Positions 1,644 to 22,289 of a DNA stretch of 64,000 nt are shown here, piece after piece. Numbering within the stretch: position 1 is the first letter of the stretch; each line of letters begins with the position of its first letter. Source of the stretch: Actinoplanes missouriensis 431 (GTDB taxonomy: Bacteria > Actinomycetota > Actinomycetes > Mycobacteriales > Micromonosporaceae); NCBI RefSeq assembly GCF_000284295.1, contig NC_017093.1:186001-250000 (forward strand), given 5' to 3'. The translations under genes and the position numbers were made by a program. The notes below the pieces were generated by a model. That model was not told where the DNA came from and did no database searches. It saw only the letters and a list, made by a program, of their open reading frames with translations.

Positions 1644-1817
1644 TCGCCGACCTCCAGTTATTGCTGAACGGTACTCCACGTACCGGGGGATGCGCAGAAC
1701 CGGACCCGGCACGTGTTGTTCCGTGGCCCGGCCTAATAGTTGGTCTACAGCAAGTAACGGACCTTCTGATGGTAAAGTCCGGCCGTTGCGCACGGATCGT
1801 GTGGTGGGGAGACAGTG

Positions 1818-2675
1818 ATGCCGCTGAGTTCGGACGAGGCGAGGCGGTTCGCCGACCTGCTGAAAGAACACGCGGAGTCACTCACTGCGCGATGGGCCGA
1901 GTTGGCCGGCGCCGGCCTGCGCGGCCGTCTCAGCGGCGCCGAGCTGCGGCGTCAGGTCGAGGACTTGCGGAAGGGCTTCGCGGAGGCGCTCAGCGCCGGA
2001 TCGGTGGACCTGACCGACGAGCGTTCGGCCGAGCTGCGCGCCCAGCTCGGTGAGCTGTCCAGCCACCGGGCCCGGCAGGGTTTCACCGCCACCGAGACGG
2101 CGGTCAGCATCTACGCGTTCAAGGACGCGGTGCTCGAGGTGCTCGGCGACGGCACCGACGCCGGCACGCTGCGGGACTACGTGGCGTTCTCCACGTTCGT
2201 GGACCGGGCCGCGCTGTTCACCTTCGACAGTTACGTGAAGGTGCGCGAGGGCCTCATCGCCGACCAGGCCGAGCAGCTTCTGGAGCTCTCCACCCCGGTG
2301 GTGAAGCTGTGGGAGGGCGTCGTGGCGGTGCCGCTGGTCGGCACGCTCGACTCGGCCCGCGCCCAGGTGGTGATGGAACGGCTGCTGCAGACCCTGGTGG
2401 ACACCAGCTCGCCGTACGCGATCATCGACATCACCGGTGTCCCGGCCGTCGACACGCAGGTCGCCCAGCACATCCTCAAGACCGTGGTGGCCGCCCGGCT
2501 GATGGGCGCGGACTGCATCATCTCCGGCATCCGCCCGCAGATCGCGCAGACGATCGTGGCGCTCGGCATCGAGTTCGGCGACATCGCGACGAAGGCCTCG
2601 CTCGCCGACGCCCTGCGCTACGTCCTGGGCAAGACCGGCAGCCGATCCCTTCCCGCCAAGCGCGCGGAGCGCTGA
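1818..2675 (+). CDS. rsbR: RsbR-type stressosome co-antagonist
   Basis: The 285-residue protein has an all-helical N-terminal sensor half (about 1-150, resembling the RsbRD N-terminal domain) and a C-terminal STAS domain (about 158-275). The STAS part carries the RsbR signature IIDITGVPAVDT followed by ISGIRPQIAQT. T213 and T245 lie where RsbR-family proteins carry threonines that RsbT phosphorylates, although I have not aligned them. In known stressosomes RsbR and RsbS build an icosahedral scaffold that holds RsbT until stress releases it. The ATG at 1818 is preferred over a GTG three bases earlier because GGGGAG then sits at normal spacing. It is the first gene of a six-gene run. Confidence 0.9.
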   Translation: MPLSSDEARRFADLLKEHAESLTARWAELAGAGLRGRLSGAELRRQVEDLRKGFAEALSAGSVDLTDERSAELRAQLGELSSHRARQGFTATETAVSIYAFKDAVLEVLGDGTDAGTLRDYVAFSTFVDRAALFTFDSYVKVREGLIADQAEQLLELSTPVVKLWEGVVAVPLVGTLDSARAQVVMERLLQTLVDTSSPYAIIDITGVPAVDTQVAQHILKTVVAARLMGADCIISGIRPQIAQTIVALGIEFGDIATKASLADALRYVLGKTGSRSLPAKRAER

Positions 2676-2676
2676 C

Positions 2677-3096
2677 GTGGAACGCGTCCCGGTCCTGAAG
2701 ATCGGTGACATCCTCCTCGTCTCGATCCAGATCGACATGGAGGACCAGGTCGCGCTGCAGTTGCAGGAGGACCTGGCCGAGCGGATCGTGGCGACCGGCT
2801 GCCATGGCGTGATCATCGACATCAGCGCGCTCGACATCGTCGACTCGTTCGTCGGCCGTACGCTCGCCACCATCGCCTCGGTCTCCCGGGTGCTGGACGC
2901 CGAGACCGTGGTGGTCGGCATGCGCCCGGCCGTGGCGATCACCCTTGTCGAGCTGGGTCTGTCGCTGCCCGGGATCCGGACGGCGCTCGACGTGGAGCTG
3001 GGCATCGAGATGCTGGCCCGCGCCCGTCAGGACAGCGACCCGGAACCGGACTTCGACGAGGATGAGCCTGACACGGCAGCGGTAACCACGCCGTGA
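2677..3096 (+). CDS. rsbS: RsbS-type stressosome STAS antagonist
   Basis: This 139-residue protein is a single STAS domain. The phosphorylation loop reads SALDIVDSFVGR, placing the acceptor at S57, as in RsbS. It starts with GTG one base after the rsbR stop. The last 25 residues are acidic and probably disordered (DSDPEPDFDEDEPD), an extension beyond the usual RsbS length of about 120. In known systems RsbS recruits and inhibits RsbT and is inactivated when RsbT phosphorylates it. Its order between rsbR and rsbT matches the canonical operon. The last four bases overlap rsbT. Confidence 0.92.
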   Translation: MERVPVLKIGDILLVSIQIDMEDQVALQLQEDLAERIVATGCHGVIIDISALDIVDSFVGRTLATIASVSRVLDAETVVVGMRPAVAITLVELGLSLPGIRTALDVELGIEMLARARQDSDPEPDFDEDEPDTAAVTTP

Positions 3097-3497
3097 CCGA
3101 GGAGAGCCAGCGGCTTCCGGTTTCGACCGACCAGGACGTGGTCCGGGTCCGGCAGCTGGTGCGTACCGTCGCGGTCGCGGTGAAGCTGTCGCTCGTCGAC
3201 CAGACCAAGCTGGTCACGGCCGCGAGCGAGCTGGCGCGCAACACCCTGGTCTACGGTGGTGGCGGCGAAGTGATCGTGAGCCGGGTGCAGAGCGACCGCC
3301 GTCCCGGTATCAGGATCGTCTTCGCGGACCAGGGCCCGGGCATCGCCGACCTGGACCTGGCGCTCACCGACGGTTACACCACCGGCGGCGGCCTCGGCCT
3401 CGGCCTCAGTGGCGCACGTCGCCTGGTCGACGAGTTCGAGATCCAGACCGAGGTGGGTAAGGGCACGACAATCACCGTTACCAAGTGGTGCCGATGA
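3093..3497 (+). CDS. rsbT: RsbT-type serine/threonine kinase (GHKL anti-sigma family)
   Basis: This 134-residue GHKL ATPase has the RsbT hallmarks. The N-box is ASELARNTLVYG, the G1 box is FADQGPGIADLD, and a glycine-rich lid (GGGLGLGLSGARRLVDEF) ends in GKGTTITVTKW. In known stressosomes RsbT phosphorylates RsbS and RsbR, leaves the scaffold and switches on the PP2C phosphatase RsbU. The GTG start overlaps the rsbS stop (GTGA), implying translational coupling. All ATP-binding motifs look intact, in contrast to the kinase head encoded two genes downstream. Confidence 0.93.
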   Translation: MTEESQRLPVSTDQDVVRVRQLVRTVAVAVKLSLVDQTKLVTAASELARNTLVYGGGGEVIVSRVQSDRRPGIRIVFADQGPGIADLDLALTDGYTTGGGLGLGLSGARRLVDEFEIQTEVGKGTTITVTKWCR

Positions 3498-4525
3498 GCG
3501 GAGACACGGTGGTATCGCTGCCCGAGGAGTTGCTCGGCGAAGGAGTCTGGTTCCGGGTCGAGGAGGCGGTCACCGCCGCCGCGGTCCGCCGAGCCGCCGA
3601 GCGTCTCGCCACCGATCTGGGCATGCCGGACCGCCGTGTCGCCGACCTCTCGATCGTCGCCGCCGAGGCGGCCGGCAATCTGGTCAAACACGCTGATCAG
3701 GGCCTCATCCTGGTACGCGCGGTACGCACCGCGGAACACGCCGGCGTCGAGATCATCGCGTTGGACAGCGGCCCCGGCATCGCCGACGTGGACCGGGCCA
3801 TCGGTGACGGGCACTCCACGGCCGGGACCCTGGGCATCGGGCTCGGCGCGATCCTGCGCCAGGCCAGCCGCTGGGACATGTACTCGCAGCCGGGCAGGGG
3901 CACGGTCCTGGCCGTGCAGGTGTGGCCGGTCGCGCCGCCGGCGCCGGGCTGGGTGGCGGGTCTGACCCGGCCGCTCCCGGGCGAGACGGTGAGCGGGGAC
4001 GCGTACGCGGTCCGCCAGGACGGTGACCGGAGGCAGGTGCTGGTCTGCGACGGCCTGGGGCACGGCGGTCTCGCGGCGGCCGCGTCCCACGAGGCGGTGC
4101 GGACCTTCCTGTCCGGCGCCTTCGCCCCGCCGGCAGCGACGGTCGACGCCCTGCACCGGGCTCTCAATCACACCCGCGGCGCCGCGCTCGCGGTCGCCGA
4201 GCTGGACACCTCGGCCGGCCTGGTCCGGTACGCCGGGCTGGGCAACATCGCCGGTACCGTGCTGGCGCCGGACGGCACCCGGCGCGGCATGATCTCGATG
4301 CCCGGGATCGCCGGTCACCAGCGCCGCCAGGTCCGTGAGTACGACTATCCGCTGGTCCCCGGCGCGGTGGTGCTGATGCACACCGACGGCGTGGTGGACC
4401 GCTGGAACCCGAGCGACTACCCCGGCCTGCTGACCCGCTCGCCCGAGGTGATCGCGGCGACCGTGCTGCGGGACGCCGGAACCCGCCGTGACGACGCCGG
4501 CGTCCTGGTGGCGCGCCCGTCATGA
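3494..4525 (+). CDS. RsbT-like ATPase fused to an RsbX/SpoIIE-type PP2C phosphatase
   Basis: The 343-residue product has two domains. Residues about 1-140 form a second RsbT-like GHKL fold, with N-box AAEAAGNLVKHA and G1 box LDSGPGIADVD. Residues about 150-340 form a small PP2C domain (VCDGLGHGGLAAAAS, then MHTDGVVDRW, ending TRRDDAGVLVAR). RsbX in Bacillus is such a small PP2C that dephosphorylates RsbS and RsbR and resets the stressosome, so this protein could join the kinase and reset activities in one chain. It starts at the ATG overlapping the rsbT stop (ATGA). The fold assignments are strong; the reset role is inferred from position and length. Confidence 0.85.
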   Translation: MSGDTVVSLPEELLGEGVWFRVEEAVTAAAVRRAAERLATDLGMPDRRVADLSIVAAEAAGNLVKHADQGLILVRAVRTAEHAGVEIIALDSGPGIADVDRAIGDGHSTAGTLGIGLGAILRQASRWDMYSQPGRGTVLAVQVWPVAPPAPGWVAGLTRPLPGETVSGDAYAVRQDGDRRQVLVCDGLGHGGLAAAASHEAVRTFLSGAFAPPAATVDALHRALNHTRGAALAVAELDTSAGLVRYAGLGNIAGTVLAPDGTRRGMISMPGIAGHQRRQVREYDYPLVPGAVVLMHTDGVVDRWNPSDYPGLLTRSPEVIAATVLRDAGTRRDDAGVLVARPS

Positions 4526-5874
4526 CCGGACCGACCGGCGAGCCGCTGATGAGCATGCGCCTGCGGGTCGAGCAGGACATCTTCGTGGTGCGGCAACTCG
4601 GCCGTGAGGTGGCCCGCGCGGTCGGCCTGGAGTCACAGGACCAGACCCGGTTCGCCACGGCGCTCAGCGAGGTGGGCAGGGTCCTGCTCGCTGCGGGCCC
4701 GGACGCTGAGGTGGTGTTCAGCGCCAGGCCGTACGGGGTACCTACGCTGCACGTGACGATGGCGCATCCGGTCCGTGGCGAAGCGGACCGGCTGGCCCCG
4801 CAGTTGCAGCAAGTCGGCCGGCTGGTCGACACGATGGAGGTCGACGATGGCAGTACCGGCACGGTCGTACGGATGGCTCGGCGTCTGCCGCCGGGTGCTT
4901 CGGAGCTGACGCCGGCCCGTATGGACGAGATTCGCTCCGGGCTGGCCGGCCATGTTCCCGGCAGCCCACTCGACGAGCTGGCGGTCCAGAACCAGCAGCT
5001 CATCGCGGCGCTGGACGAGGTACGTGCCCAGCGCGACGACCTCGCTCGGCTCAACGCCGAGCTGGAGGAGACGAACCGCGGCGTGATGGCCCTCTACCAC
5101 CAGCTCTCCGAGGAGCTGGAGGAGACGAACCGCGGTGTCGTGGCGCTCTACGCCGAGCTGGACGAGAAGTCGGTGCAGCTGCGGGCCGCGAGCGAGGCGA
5201 AGAGCCGGTTCCTGGCCAACGTGAGCCATGAGCTGCGGGCGCCGGTCACCGCGATCATCGGGCTGGGCCGGTTGCTCACCGACTCCGGCTCGGACGACCT
5301 CACCGAGGAGCAGAGCCGCCAGGTCGATCTGATCCGCACCTCGGCCAGCGACCTGCTGACCCTGGTCAACGGCCTGCTCGACCTCGCGAAGGCGGAGGCC
5401 GGCCGGATCGAGCCGAACTGGTCCGAGGTCGACCTCAGGGCGATGTTCGGACAGCTCCGCGGCACGTTGCGGCCGCTCGCCACCCGGCCCGAGGTGGACT
5501 TCGTGATCGACGAGCCGGCCGTGCCGTCGCTGCGCTCCGACGAGGTCCTGCTCGCTCAGGTGCTGCGCAACCTGCTGACCAACGCGCTGAAGTTCACCGA
5601 GTCCGGCTCGGTGCGGCTGAGCGTGCGCCCGATCGGCGGCGACGTCGAGTTCTCGGTCGCGGACACCGGCACGGGCATCCCGCCGGAGCTGCACGAACGG
5701 GTCTTCGAGGAGTTCTACCAGGTGCCCGGCAGCAAGCCGGTGAGCGGCCGGGGCACCGGCCTCGGCCTGCCCTACGCCCGCCGGCTGGCCGGGATCCTCG
5801 GCGGTGGCCTGCGGGTCGACTCCGAGCCCGGTTCCGGCAGCACCTTCACCCTGCGCCTGCCCGCGACGTCATGA
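4522..5874 (+). CDS. cytoplasmic histidine kinase with degenerate RsbT-like head
   Basis: This 450-residue protein has no membrane segment. Residues about 10-130 look like a third RsbT/RsbW-type fold (QDQTRFATALSEVGRV), but the N-box asparagine and the DxGxG box are missing, so it should not bind ATP. A coiled coil with a duplicated ELEETNRGV motif follows (about 155-220). The HisKA domain has FLANVSHELRAPV, giving H236 as phosphoacceptor. The HATPase_c domain has NLLTNALKFTESG, DTGTGIPP and GRGTGLGLPYARR. It overlaps both neighbours by four bases. The dead head could dock on RsbS or RsbR in place of RsbT and couple the scaffold to phosphorelay; that is inference. Confidence 0.88.
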   Translation: MTGPTGEPLMSMRLRVEQDIFVVRQLGREVARAVGLESQDQTRFATALSEVGRVLLAAGPDAEVVFSARPYGVPTLHVTMAHPVRGEADRLAPQLQQVGRLVDTMEVDDGSTGTVVRMARRLPPGASELTPARMDEIRSGLAGHVPGSPLDELAVQNQQLIAALDEVRAQRDDLARLNAELEETNRGVMALYHQLSEELEETNRGVVALYAELDEKSVQLRAASEAKSRFLANVSHELRAPVTAIIGLGRLLTDSGSDDLTEEQSRQVDLIRTSASDLLTLVNGLLDLAKAEAGRIEPNWSEVDLRAMFGQLRGTLRPLATRPEVDFVIDEPAVPSLRSDEVLLAQVLRNLLTNALKFTESGSVRLSVRPIGGDVEFSVADTGTGIPPELHERVFEEFYQVPGSKPVSGRGTGLGLPYARRLAGILGGGLRVDSEPGSGSTFTLRLPATS

Positions 5875-7424
5875 GCGCCGGCGTGCAGAGCAAGGTCCCG
5901 GCTACGGTGATGGTCGTCGACGACAGTGCCACGAAACGGTACCTGCTGGTCAGCTGGCTGACCCGGGCCGGTTTCGCGGTGCTGGAGGCGGAGACCGGCG
6001 GCGAGGCGCTGGACAAGCTCGTCGACGCCGAGGCCGACCTGGTCGTGCTGGACGTGAAGCTCCCGGACATGAGCGGCTTCGAGGTCTGCGAGCGGATCAA
6101 GACCGATCAGCGGTACGGGGTTCTGCCGGTCATCCACGTGTCCGCCCATGCCGTGGACGTGAACGACCGTACCCAGGGCCTGAACCGGGGTGCGGACGCC
6201 TACCTCGTCGAGCCGATCGAGCCGGACGAGCTGATCGCTACCGCACAGGCCGTGCTGCGCTACTACCGCGCCCGCCGTCGGGCCGAGCAGCTCGCGGAGC
6301 GGATGGTCCGCCTCGCCGAGACCACCCTGGCGATCAACTCGGCGGGCACCCTGACCGATCTGCTCGCCGCGGCGGCCGAGGGCGCGCAGGACATCTTCGG
6401 TGGTCCGGTCATGGTGGTCGCGGACACCTCCGAGGGCGAGAGTCTGGCCGCGGCGGGACAGCCCGCACGGGTACGGCCGTGGACCGTCCCGGAGCACGCG
6501 GTGGCCGTCGGGTCGCTGGTGCGCACCGACGAGCCGGCCGACTGGGACATGGTCGACTGGCCGGCGGGTGACACGGTCGCGGTCGCCGCGGCCCGGCTGC
6601 GCGCCGACCGGCCGCCGGTCTACGTCGCGGCGCCGGCAAGCACCCAGAACTCGGGTTTCCCGGTGTTGCGGCAGCTCTCCCAGGCGGTCGCCGCGGCCGT
6701 GGAGGCGCAGCGCTCCTTCGACGAGGAGCACCGGATCGCTGTCACGCTGCAGCGCAGCCTGCTGCAGTCGGAGCTGCCGAAGGTGCCCGGTGTGGAGCTC
6801 GCCGTGCGGTACGAGCCGGCCGGCGCGCAGACCGAGGTGGGCGGCGACTTCTACGAGCTGACCGTGCTCGGCGGCGAGCTGCTGGTGGCGATCGGTGACG
6901 TGGCCGGGCACTCGCTGCACGCCGCCACGGTGATGGCCGAGCTGCGGCACGCGGTCCGGGCGTACGCGGTCGAGGGCCATCCGCCGGGCGAGGTGCTGGA
7001 GCTGGTCAACCGCTTCATGCGCACGGTCCTGCCGGACGACTCGGCGACGCTCTGCCTGCTCACCCTGGACCCGGTCACCGGCCGGATCCGGATGGCCAGC
7101 GCCGGCCACCTGCCGCCGCTGGTGCACACCGACGGAGAGGCGCGGTTCCTGTCGCCGCGCGGCGCGCTGCTCGGCATCGCCGCGCCGCGCCGGGCCGAGC
7201 TGGAGTTCACCCTGCCGCCCGGTGGCACGCTGGTGCTCTACACCGACGGCCTGATCGAGCGGCGGGACACGGACATCGACGTGGGCCTGCGCGCCTTGTC
7301 GGCGATCGCCGGCGAGGTCGAGCCGGACCTCGACGCGTTCTGCTCCCGGCTGCTCACGCTGCTCGCGGGCCCCGGCGAGCAGGCCGACGACATCGCCGTC
7401 GTGGCGCTGCGCCGCAACGCCTGA
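5871..7424 (+). CDS. response-regulator receiver / GAF-like / PP2C phosphatase (RsbU-type)
   Basis: The 517-residue product is the likely output enzyme of the operon. Residues about 12-130 are a receiver with DD near the start and acceptor D61 (VVLDVKLPDMSG); the normally invariant Lys is Glu (E114, in YLVEPIEP). Residues about 140-275 form a GAF-like sensor. Residues about 285-515 form a SpoIIE-type PP2C domain with TEVGGDFYEL, IGDVAGHSLHAA, SAGHLPPL and YTDGLIERR, ending EQADDIAVVALR. It should dephosphorylate a STAS antagonist, perhaps the one at 1290-1643, under control of the kinase just upstream. The GTGA/ATGA-type overlaps place it last in the operon. Confidence 0.92.
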   Translation: MSAGVQSKVPATVMVVDDSATKRYLLVSWLTRAGFAVLEAETGGEALDKLVDAEADLVVLDVKLPDMSGFEVCERIKTDQRYGVLPVIHVSAHAVDVNDRTQGLNRGADAYLVEPIEPDELIATAQAVLRYYRARRRAEQLAERMVRLAETTLAINSAGTLTDLLAAAAEGAQDIFGGPVMVVADTSEGESLAAAGQPARVRPWTVPEHAVAVGSLVRTDEPADWDMVDWPAGDTVAVAAARLRADRPPVYVAAPASTQNSGFPVLRQLSQAVAAAVEAQRSFDEEHRIAVTLQRSLLQSELPKVPGVELAVRYEPAGAQTEVGGDFYELTVLGGELLVAIGDVAGHSLHAATVMAELRHAVRAYAVEGHPPGEVLELVNRFMRTVLPDDSATLCLLTLDPVTGRIRMASAGHLPPLVHTDGEARFLSPRGALLGIAAPRRAELEFTLPPGGTLVLYTDGLIERRDTDIDVGLRALSAIAGEVEPDLDAFCSRLLTLLAGPGEQADDIAVVALRRNA

Positions 7425-17288: not shown

Positions 17289-21692
<4,404 letters not shown>

Positions 21693-21740
21693 GAGCAGCC
21701 CGGAGCAGGACTCGAACCGAACTGTGTGAGGTGGATACGC

Positions 21741-22289
21741 GTGGGTGAGCGCGCCAAGGCGCTTCTGGTCGACGACCGGCGGGACAACCTGCTGGCCCTG
21801 GAAGCGATCCTGCAAGGGCTGCCGGTGACCGCGGTCGCCGTGGAGAGCGGGGAGGCGGCCCTCAAGCAGTTGCTCACCGACGACTTCGCGGTGATCCTGC
21901 TCGACGCGCACATGCCCAACATGGATGGGTTCGAGACGGCCAGCCACATCAAGCGGCGGGAGCGGACCCGGCACGTACCCATCCTGTTCCTGACCGCTGC
22001 CGACCGCGATGCGCAACTCGCGCTCCGGGGTTACGCGGTCGGCGCCGTGGATTACCTCACGAAGCCGTTCGACCCGTGGGTGCTGCGCGCCAAGGTGTCG
22101 ATCTTCGTTGAGCTCTGGACGAAGAACCAGCAGCTCAAGGCCCAGGCCGAGGCGTCGAAGGAGCGGGAGACGCAGTGGCTCCAGCTCACCGAGACGATGG
22201 ATGAGGCGGCTCGGGTGCTGCGGGCCGGCGGCCCGGAGGCCGCCACCGAGGCGCTCGATCTGCTGGAGAAGGCCCGCTGGGGGAGCTGA
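21741..22289 (+). CDS. single-domain response regulator with C-terminal helical tail
   Basis: The 182-residue protein has a receiver domain (about 5-125) with DD (ALLVDDRRDN), acceptor Asp in VILLDAHMPNMDGF, the conserved Thr in LFLTAADRD and Lys in YLTKPFDP. A charged coiled-coil tail (about 125-180) follows, with no DNA-binding or enzymatic domain. It probably relays phosphate from, or tunes, the HAMP-array kinase encoded just upstream. I prefer GTG 21741 (GAGGTGG six bases upstream) over the GTG at 21726. Confidence 0.9.
   Translation: MGERAKALLVDDRRDNLLALEAILQGLPVTAVAVESGEAALKQLLTDDFAVILLDAHMPNMDGFETASHIKRRERTRHVPILFLTAADRDAQLALRGYAVGAVDYLTKPFDPWVLRAKVSIFVELWTKNQQLKAQAEASKERETQWLQLTETMDEAARVLRAGGPEAATEALDLLEKARWGS

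Follow-up and report, generated by a model that had tools for sequence, protein, structure and literature searches.

The subject of this analysis is a six-gene operon of Actinoplanes missouriensis 431 in which a stressosome module is followed by a histidine kinase that begins with an RsbT-like domain stripped of its ATP motifs (the head), joined to the kinase by a conserved linker. The operon lies in a 64,000-nucleotide stretch (NC_017093.1, positions 186,001 to 250,000; hereafter the window, to which coordinates refer) within a single 8.77 Mb contig, and the closest named relatives among the matches were Actinoplanes. All six genes, rsbR, rsbS, rsbT, rsbTX (TX), the histidine kinase (HK) and a response regulator (RR), are tightly packed on the plus strand from 1815 to 7424 in the order R-S-T-TX-HK-RR (Table 1). 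A sequence-only reading of the window had described these genes and their domains, coupled by 4-base overlaps after rsbR-rsbS. Every open reading frame was found, Pfam domains agreed, and four of the five junctions are 4-base overlaps (S/T, GTGA at 3093; T/TX, ATGA; TX/HK, ATGA at 4522; HK/RR, ATGA at 5871), with a 1-base gap between rsbR and rsbS. The T/TX overlap holds only with a TX start at 3494; a longer TX frame opens at GTG 3485. RsbR (N-terminal sensor and C-terminal STAS), RsbS (single STAS) and RsbT (intact ATP motifs) make up a stressosome module. No single-domain RsbX phosphatase was found in the operon by Pfam, the PP2C in RsbX's place being fused to an ATPase domain. Kinase and receiver-PP2C partner (REC-PP2C) are both present, as in two-component modules of the RsbK-RsbY type, and neither HK nor RR had a Pfam match to RsbU_N at E ≤ 1.

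Table 1. Features of the operon and of its divergent neighbor, in window coordinates.
Feature	Coordinates	Strand	Domains and evidence
rsbR	1815..2675	+	RsbRD_N sensor domain and STAS; Pfam PF14361 E 1.8e-23, STAS E 2.1e-14
rsbS	2677..3096	+	Single STAS; Pfam STAS E 2.8e-10
rsbT	3093..3497	+	GHKL switch kinase, N-box Asn and DxGPG intact; Pfam HATPase_c E 2.3e-13
rsbTX (TX)	3494..4525	+	RsbT/RsbW-type ATPase domain fused to SpoIIE-type PP2C; HATPase_c_2 E 1e-8, SpoIIE E 2e-13
Histidine kinase HK, 450 aa	4522..5874	+	HisKA E 1.4e-18, HATPase_c E 3.9e-29
Pseudo-RsbT head of HK, residues 9-125	4546..4896	+	Pairwise, profile, fold and tree evidence
Coiled-coil linker of HK, residues 173-222	5038..5187	+	Two TNRGVxALY copies: 5071-5097, 5125-5151
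Response regulator RR	5871..7424	+	Receiver, middle region and SpoIIE-type PP2C, RsbY-like layout; Response_reg E 9.1e-23, SpoIIE E 3.9e-46
RsbV-like anti-anti-sigma STAS protein, 117 aa	1293..1643	-	Divergent from rsbR

Pfam and NCBIfam returned no match for the head itself, and PF13581 run over the whole genome did not list it at E ≤ 0.001, so the case for its homology was built from pairwise comparison, profiles, predicted fold and a tree. Compared with the RsbT of its own operon, the head showed 49% identity over 51 amino acids (E 1e-9; blastp, two-sequence database). A search of the whole genome (8.77 Mb) with the same RsbT ranked RsbT first, TX second and the HK head third (E 3e-6), in a genome that holds 70 HATPase_c_2 matches at E ≤ 0.001. 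Conversely, a profile of 27 heads recovered the operon's rsbT at E 6e-10. The AlphaFold2 model of the head was confident (pLDDT 88, pTM 0.83), and all four of its Foldseek matches at E ≤ 0.001 were RsbW and UsfX chains. The first ten rows of a VIA-align comparison were RsbW, UsfX, SpoIIAB and Rv1364c (Z 13.8-15.8, rmsd 2.0-2.9, 102-117 residues), with LvrC (11.1) and SiaB (10.6) further down; ATPase domains of histidine kinases reached Z 8.6 at most, and no RsbT structure was among the matches listed. The head is a relative of RsbT with a predicted GHKL fold of the RsbW/SpoIIAB type, and the structural comparison on which the sequence-only reading had staked its view of the head came out in its favor.

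Residues were counted in an alignment of 25 actinomycete heads and 25 RsbT (5 near and 20 distant loci). The N-box Asn occurred in 25/25 RsbT and 0/25 heads, and the Asp and Gly of DxGPG were missing from 25/25 heads, so the losses that had been read from one head extend to all those counted; a separate alignment of 39 kinases, judged by eye, had the N-box Asn in no head. All 25 heads kept R24, D40, R43, A45, A47, S49 and R53. Head residues R24 and R28 align with R19 and R23 of Listeria RsbT (placement by alignment), and equivalents of these alpha-1 arginines were present in 25/25 (R19) and 22/25 (R23) heads. D92, kept as D or E in 25/25 RsbT of these operons, was not kept in the heads. In Bacillus subtilis, RsbT R19 and R23 are buried in the modeled interface with RsbU, and RsbT D92 was marked together with RsbU R91 in an analysis of the RsbU linker (PMC12143880; here and below, PMC numbers refer to excerpts of the papers). 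The kept R19 and R23 equivalents, taken with the lost ATP and lid region, point to a possible effector-side role at least as well as to scaffold binding. The latter was the model of the sequence-only reading, in which the pseudo-RsbT head would occupy the seat of RsbT on the RsbR/RsbS scaffold and HK would be held there, to be switched or released on scaffold phosphorylation. The RsbT-type fold, the retained alpha-1/alpha-2 sequence and the encoding of the head together with RsbR and RsbS in the inspected loci are consistent with such a seat. STAS partners in SpoIIAB-type complexes, however, dock against the nucleotide/lid region, which is gone from the 25 counted heads, and kinases with no head at all hold the same gene place at two loci (L154, L156); we consider this model unlikely.

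Between head and kinase, HK carries the motif L-E-x-T-N-x-G-V-x-A-L-Y, generalized below as TNxGVxAL(Y/H). In near kinases it occurs in two copies spaced 18 residues apart, and as a side observation, the TNRGV linker unit (5071-5151, plus strand) reads as a tandem duplication of 18-residue period in actinomycete kinases. The motif was found twice in 38/38 near loci and in 19/20 distant loci (L119-L138), and once in the remaining one (L135). It was single in the motif-bearing loci of Deinococcus, Sphingomonas, Xanthomonas, Variovorax and Caballeronia, and in the streptomycete PP2C forms. Among 29 kinases, 33 of 50 linker columns were invariant. The full-length HK model drew one continuous helix over residues 149-253, taking the linker into the phosphoacceptor helix (HisKA), at a pTM of 0.44 that makes domain placement unreliable. 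The head was the least conserved part of these kinases (30/117 columns invariant versus 47/69 in HisKA), which fits the idea that it is a worn remnant serving HK as a dimerization cap and carrying no signal. That the head is non-scoring in eight PP2C-type effectors and missing from some kinases (see below) also suits a cap, yet R24, D40, R43, S49 and R53 are fixed in 25/25 heads, beyond the apparent need of a bare cap, and we judge this explanation to be rather improbable.

With the head as query, 62 of 100 genomes matched at E ≤ 1e-4, including 58 of the 60 same-genus genomes (own included); a few weaker places in this match list were RsbT itself. The order R-S-T-TX-HK-RR was the same in 38/38 named relatives, which are near relatives by design since they were found using patterns from the window's own head. 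Head matches in less closely related actinomycetes gave 32 further loci, of which 31 carried the same order, and the 32nd (L135) had R-S-T-TX followed by a head fused directly to PP2C, replacing HK and RR. Conserved order elsewhere was the other ground on which the sequence-only reading had rested its case; its observation that one gene set joins a stressosome to a two-component relay is correct and general. The near-kinase set numbered 39 (window plus 38), of which 27 entered the head alignment and 29 the linker-conservation set. Two kinases (L061, L088) are frame-broken in their records; they were kept for gene order and excluded from the six gene profiles and the 29-kinase set, with the L061 head included in the 27-head alignment. 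A phylum-wide search with the head profile registered 32 of 396 genomes, many through short frames that resemble stand-alone RsbT and were not read singly, so this search supports homology and not the distribution of the fusion. In eight genomes of the same taxonomic order (G079, G099, G177, G202, G264, G274, G400 and G423), the head-profile matches cross one TGA in a frame of ~150 amino acids; these are probably RsbT genes.

Among plasmids, the head query matched nine records (Streptomyces, 4; Deinococcus, 2; Embleya, Nonomuraea and Sphingomonas), and the two streptomycete records that were read encode head-PP2C proteins. Kinase heads from Deinococcus (3 records), Sphingomonas (1), Paraburkholderia (2) and Phaeobacter (1) kept the Asn and DxGxG, while a Caballeronia kinase head was without ATP motifs. 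Xanthomonas vasicola and Variovorax have a kinase at the same gene place with the linker and without a head. Head and linker occur in Actinomycetota, Deinococcota and Pseudomonadota. Headless kinases at this gene place are also evidence against a decoy, in which the head would use the GHKL dimer face to pair with RsbT and limit free RsbT, giving feedback in place of activation; GHKL anti-sigma kinases dimerize, and the alpha-1 face is common to RsbT and heads, but we regard the decoy as very unlikely.

In a tree of 67 domains, all heads, with or without ATP motifs, formed one clade (28 rows, support 95/99) apart from RsbT. The RsbT sequences formed another clade (26 of 28; 98/94), with those of Phaeobacter and Listeria outside it and without resolved placement; the TX domains (11 rows) grouped in a clade of their own (100/100). 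Heads without ATP motifs were a single set (21 rows, 98/98, Caballeronia included) nested in the head clade. Since ATP-motif-bearing heads branch at the base of this clade, the simplest reading of the topology would be one old fusion whose catalysis was lost later. The tree has several long branches and missing lid columns, and the position of Caballeronia among the heads without ATP motifs may be an attraction effect. The reverse, a dead head as the ancestral state, was rejected on the basal position of the heads that keep ATP motifs, under the same caveats.

A 53-residue linker query was searched against 394 genomes of the class. It matched 41 genomes, in one place each, and all 41 matches sit in R-S-T-TX operons, before kinases or PP2C phosphatases, whether a clear head is present or not; the 41 loci were inspected individually (window + 19 + 12 + 9). 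The effectors were 31 kinases with a head, 1 head-PP2C (G471) and 9 others. Eight of these nine match the PP2C part of the RR profile, and their N-terminal regions give no convincing head score (0-7 bits); the ninth (L196) is a frame-broken kinase without a head, its linker spanning two frames. Five of the nine were blind as to context; for the other four (G371, G134, G440, G361), an RsbT-type match close by was known beforehand. Two further R-S-T-TX operons (L205, L206) have the linker by profile (19-21 bits) and stand outside the 41, missing from the linker match list. In the genome of A. missouriensis itself the linker query gave one match. In plasmids, a 34-residue linker query matched 27 records at E ≤ 1. 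An rsbT is also present in 25 of them, as seen by direct reading in 11 and, for 14 further records of D. radiodurans, as judged from coordinates; the remaining two are Priestia records (E 0.2 and 0.8). The linker is the feature common to effectors with a head, with a non-scoring head and without a head, and in the samples searched it is restricted to R-S-T-TX operons. This restriction, the conservation of gene order across orders and phyla, and the similar phenotypes of upstream and downstream module knockouts in Vibrio vulnificus (PMC10014275) all speak against HK and RR being mere neighbors, functionally unrelated to the stressosome genes, an explanation that we find scarcely credible.

On the output side, the sequence-only reading had noted that neither a sigma factor nor RsbW was present and had left the output open. 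The first part stood across the near loci (see below), but a conserved divergent gene had been overlooked and the output is less open than claimed. The RsbV-like STAS gene lies beside rsbR in 38/38 named relatives (85-99% identity), and its product aligns with Listeria RsbV at about 31-34% over about 100 amino acids. It is most likely the target of REC-PP2C in near relatives. In the actinomycete kinase loci that were read, the partner of the kinase is REC-PP2C; D. psychrotolerans has REC-GGDEF instead, Xanthomonas and two other Deinococcus have REC-kinase, and in Sphingomonas the receiver is inside the same protein as the kinase. A SigB/SigF-family gene was near the operon in 4 of 85 loci scanned (L149, L157, L198, L200), all four with PP2C effectors.

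The reading we prefer, and whose chances we see as evenly balanced, takes the gene set for a stressosome operon whose output is a two-component phosphatase and in which HK would be gated at its linker by RsbT. We infer every binding and phosphotransfer step of this scheme. RsbR and RsbS would form the sensor scaffold, with RsbT as the switch kinase and TX resetting the scaffold. The gate would be the linker, where a dimer of pseudo-RsbT heads may cap the long helix that runs directly into the phosphoacceptor helix; RsbT set free under stress would bind the TNxGVxAL(Y/H) linker, the head or both, and alter the coil, as RsbT does to the RsbU linker. HK would then hand phosphate to the receiver of REC-PP2C, which, once phosphorylated, would dephosphorylate the neighboring RsbV-like protein, and the latter in this form might free a sigma factor of the SigB type whose gene lies elsewhere. 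Head and linker of this kind may act directly on PP2C in other lineages. In favor of this reading are the conserved gene order, the single head clade with ATP-motif-bearing heads at its base, the R19 and R23 equivalents kept where the ATP site is gone, D92 kept in RsbT and not in heads, the restriction of the linker to R-S-T-TX operons in the samples searched, the modeled helix from linker into HisKA, the RsbK-RsbY precedent of B. cereus and the sigma factor genes near PP2C-type effectors at four loci.

Several observations weigh against this reading. An arginine like RsbT R19 is common among related GHKL domains. The receiver of the window (5907-6242, plus strand) reads DAYLVEP at the place where Lys-Pro is the usual receiver motif; its counterparts read DAYLAHP or DAYLTHP in the Deinococcus partners and DAYLIHP in Xanthomonas. 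The head is dispensable in Xanthomonas and Variovorax, where the kinases have the linker and no head. The linker motif is not universal: it was not found in the Paraburkholderia (L153, L159) or Phaeobacter (L160) loci, where the heads have retained their ATP motifs. Searched with Listeria and S. microflavus queries at E 1e-5, the 38 near loci yielded neither a sigma factor nor an RsbW match, and an RsbV-like match was missing from 18 of 20 distant stretches, which included short ones. The resemblance between T-N-R-G-V-V of the linker and T89-x-R91-G92-x-Q94 of RsbU is short, and Listeria RsbU reads S-L-R-T-E-Q. Finally, RsbT and the kinase VvD1 of V. vulnificus gave no positive interaction result (PMC9237108).

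Operons of this type, a stressosome with a two-component system, are already known; what appears to be new is the pseudo-RsbT head, along with a linker specific to such operons in the samples searched. V. vulnificus has rsbRSTX and two-component stressosome loci (VvD1/VvD2), and eleven downstream architectures have been described (PMC9237108). As there, the Actinoplanes operon places a kinase and a response regulator, not sigB, after a minimal stressosome; unlike those loci, it has RsbX fused to an RsbT-type domain, a pseudo-RsbT head, a TNxGV linker and a REC-PP2C output. According to the excerpts of the same survey, some downstream proteins have RsbU_N but most do not; an RsbT-derived head is not mentioned there (PMC9237108). 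The layout of histidine kinase to REC-PP2C is shared with B. cereus RsbK-RsbY, in which the kinase acts through REC-PP2C on RsbV and feeds RsbV/RsbW/SigB, and a regulatory helix precedes the kinase in RsbK (PMC4574943). RsbK differs from HK in being a transmembrane hybrid kinase under RsbM methylation (PMC4574943, PMC7522486). B. cereus is said to be without a stressosome route (PMC7522486, PMC4574943), whereas the Actinoplanes kinase follows rsbRST-TX and bears an RsbT-like head. In B. subtilis and Listeria, RsbT acts on RsbU, which has a helical linker before its catalytic domain (PMC12143880); in HK, too, a predicted helical linker precedes the catalytic part, but without a match to RsbU_N and with an RsbT-type domain fused to the effector. 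Descent of the linker from that of RsbU was considered and rejected: just T-x-R-G is common with the residues named in PMC12143880, and Listeria RsbU is without it. The S-helix is a coiled coil that acts as a switch joining an input to a kinase or PP2C, as the linker may be, with an ERT signature in its central heptad (PMC1592074). Compared by signature, the linker reads ETN, QTN, DTN or ATN followed by G and bears TNxGV, not ERT. Neither an RsbT-derived head on an effector nor the linker was found in the excerpts searched (PMC9237108, PMC10014275, PMC4976288, PMC8115616, PMC7522486, PMC12143880), although the 2005 survey of RsbRST modules (Pane-Farre) may have noted the fusion.

How a stressosome without RsbU and SigB relays its signal is the question on which these findings bear, and head and linker are small, specific candidates for the coupling. 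They connect one input device to two kinds of effector, kinase and PP2C, and the recurrence of fusion and conserved linker in several phyla may show how stress sensors plug into different outputs. A wider proposal, which we advance tentatively and regard as doubtful, is that the TNxGVxAL(Y/H) linker would be a general RsbT-operated switch exchanged between kinases and PP2C, that the head would be a captured RsbT with catalysis lost and the effector-binding face kept, and that both together would be the missing coupling device of such stressosomes. The series of heads with ATP motifs kept, lost, no longer scoring or missing altogether is a natural set in which to study the change from a switch kinase to a pseudoenzyme domain.

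A different stressosome-type arrangement is present at two loci that were not brought in by a linker match (L207, L208), where rsbT-like, rsbR-like and rsbS-like genes occur in that order, with no TX, head or linker listed. Elsewhere in the window, 8 kb from the operon, the minus strand encodes from 15150 to about 17190 a protein that reads as an RsbW-like ATPase domain (PF13581 E 2e-12), a middle region and a SpoIIE-type PP2C, possibly a further partner-switching component. On the plus strand, 17289-21692 encodes a 1,467-residue hybrid histidine kinase that reads as a long array of near-identical HAMP-like repeats of ~92 residues, a kinase and a receiver; a small receiver-like frame comes next (21693-22286).

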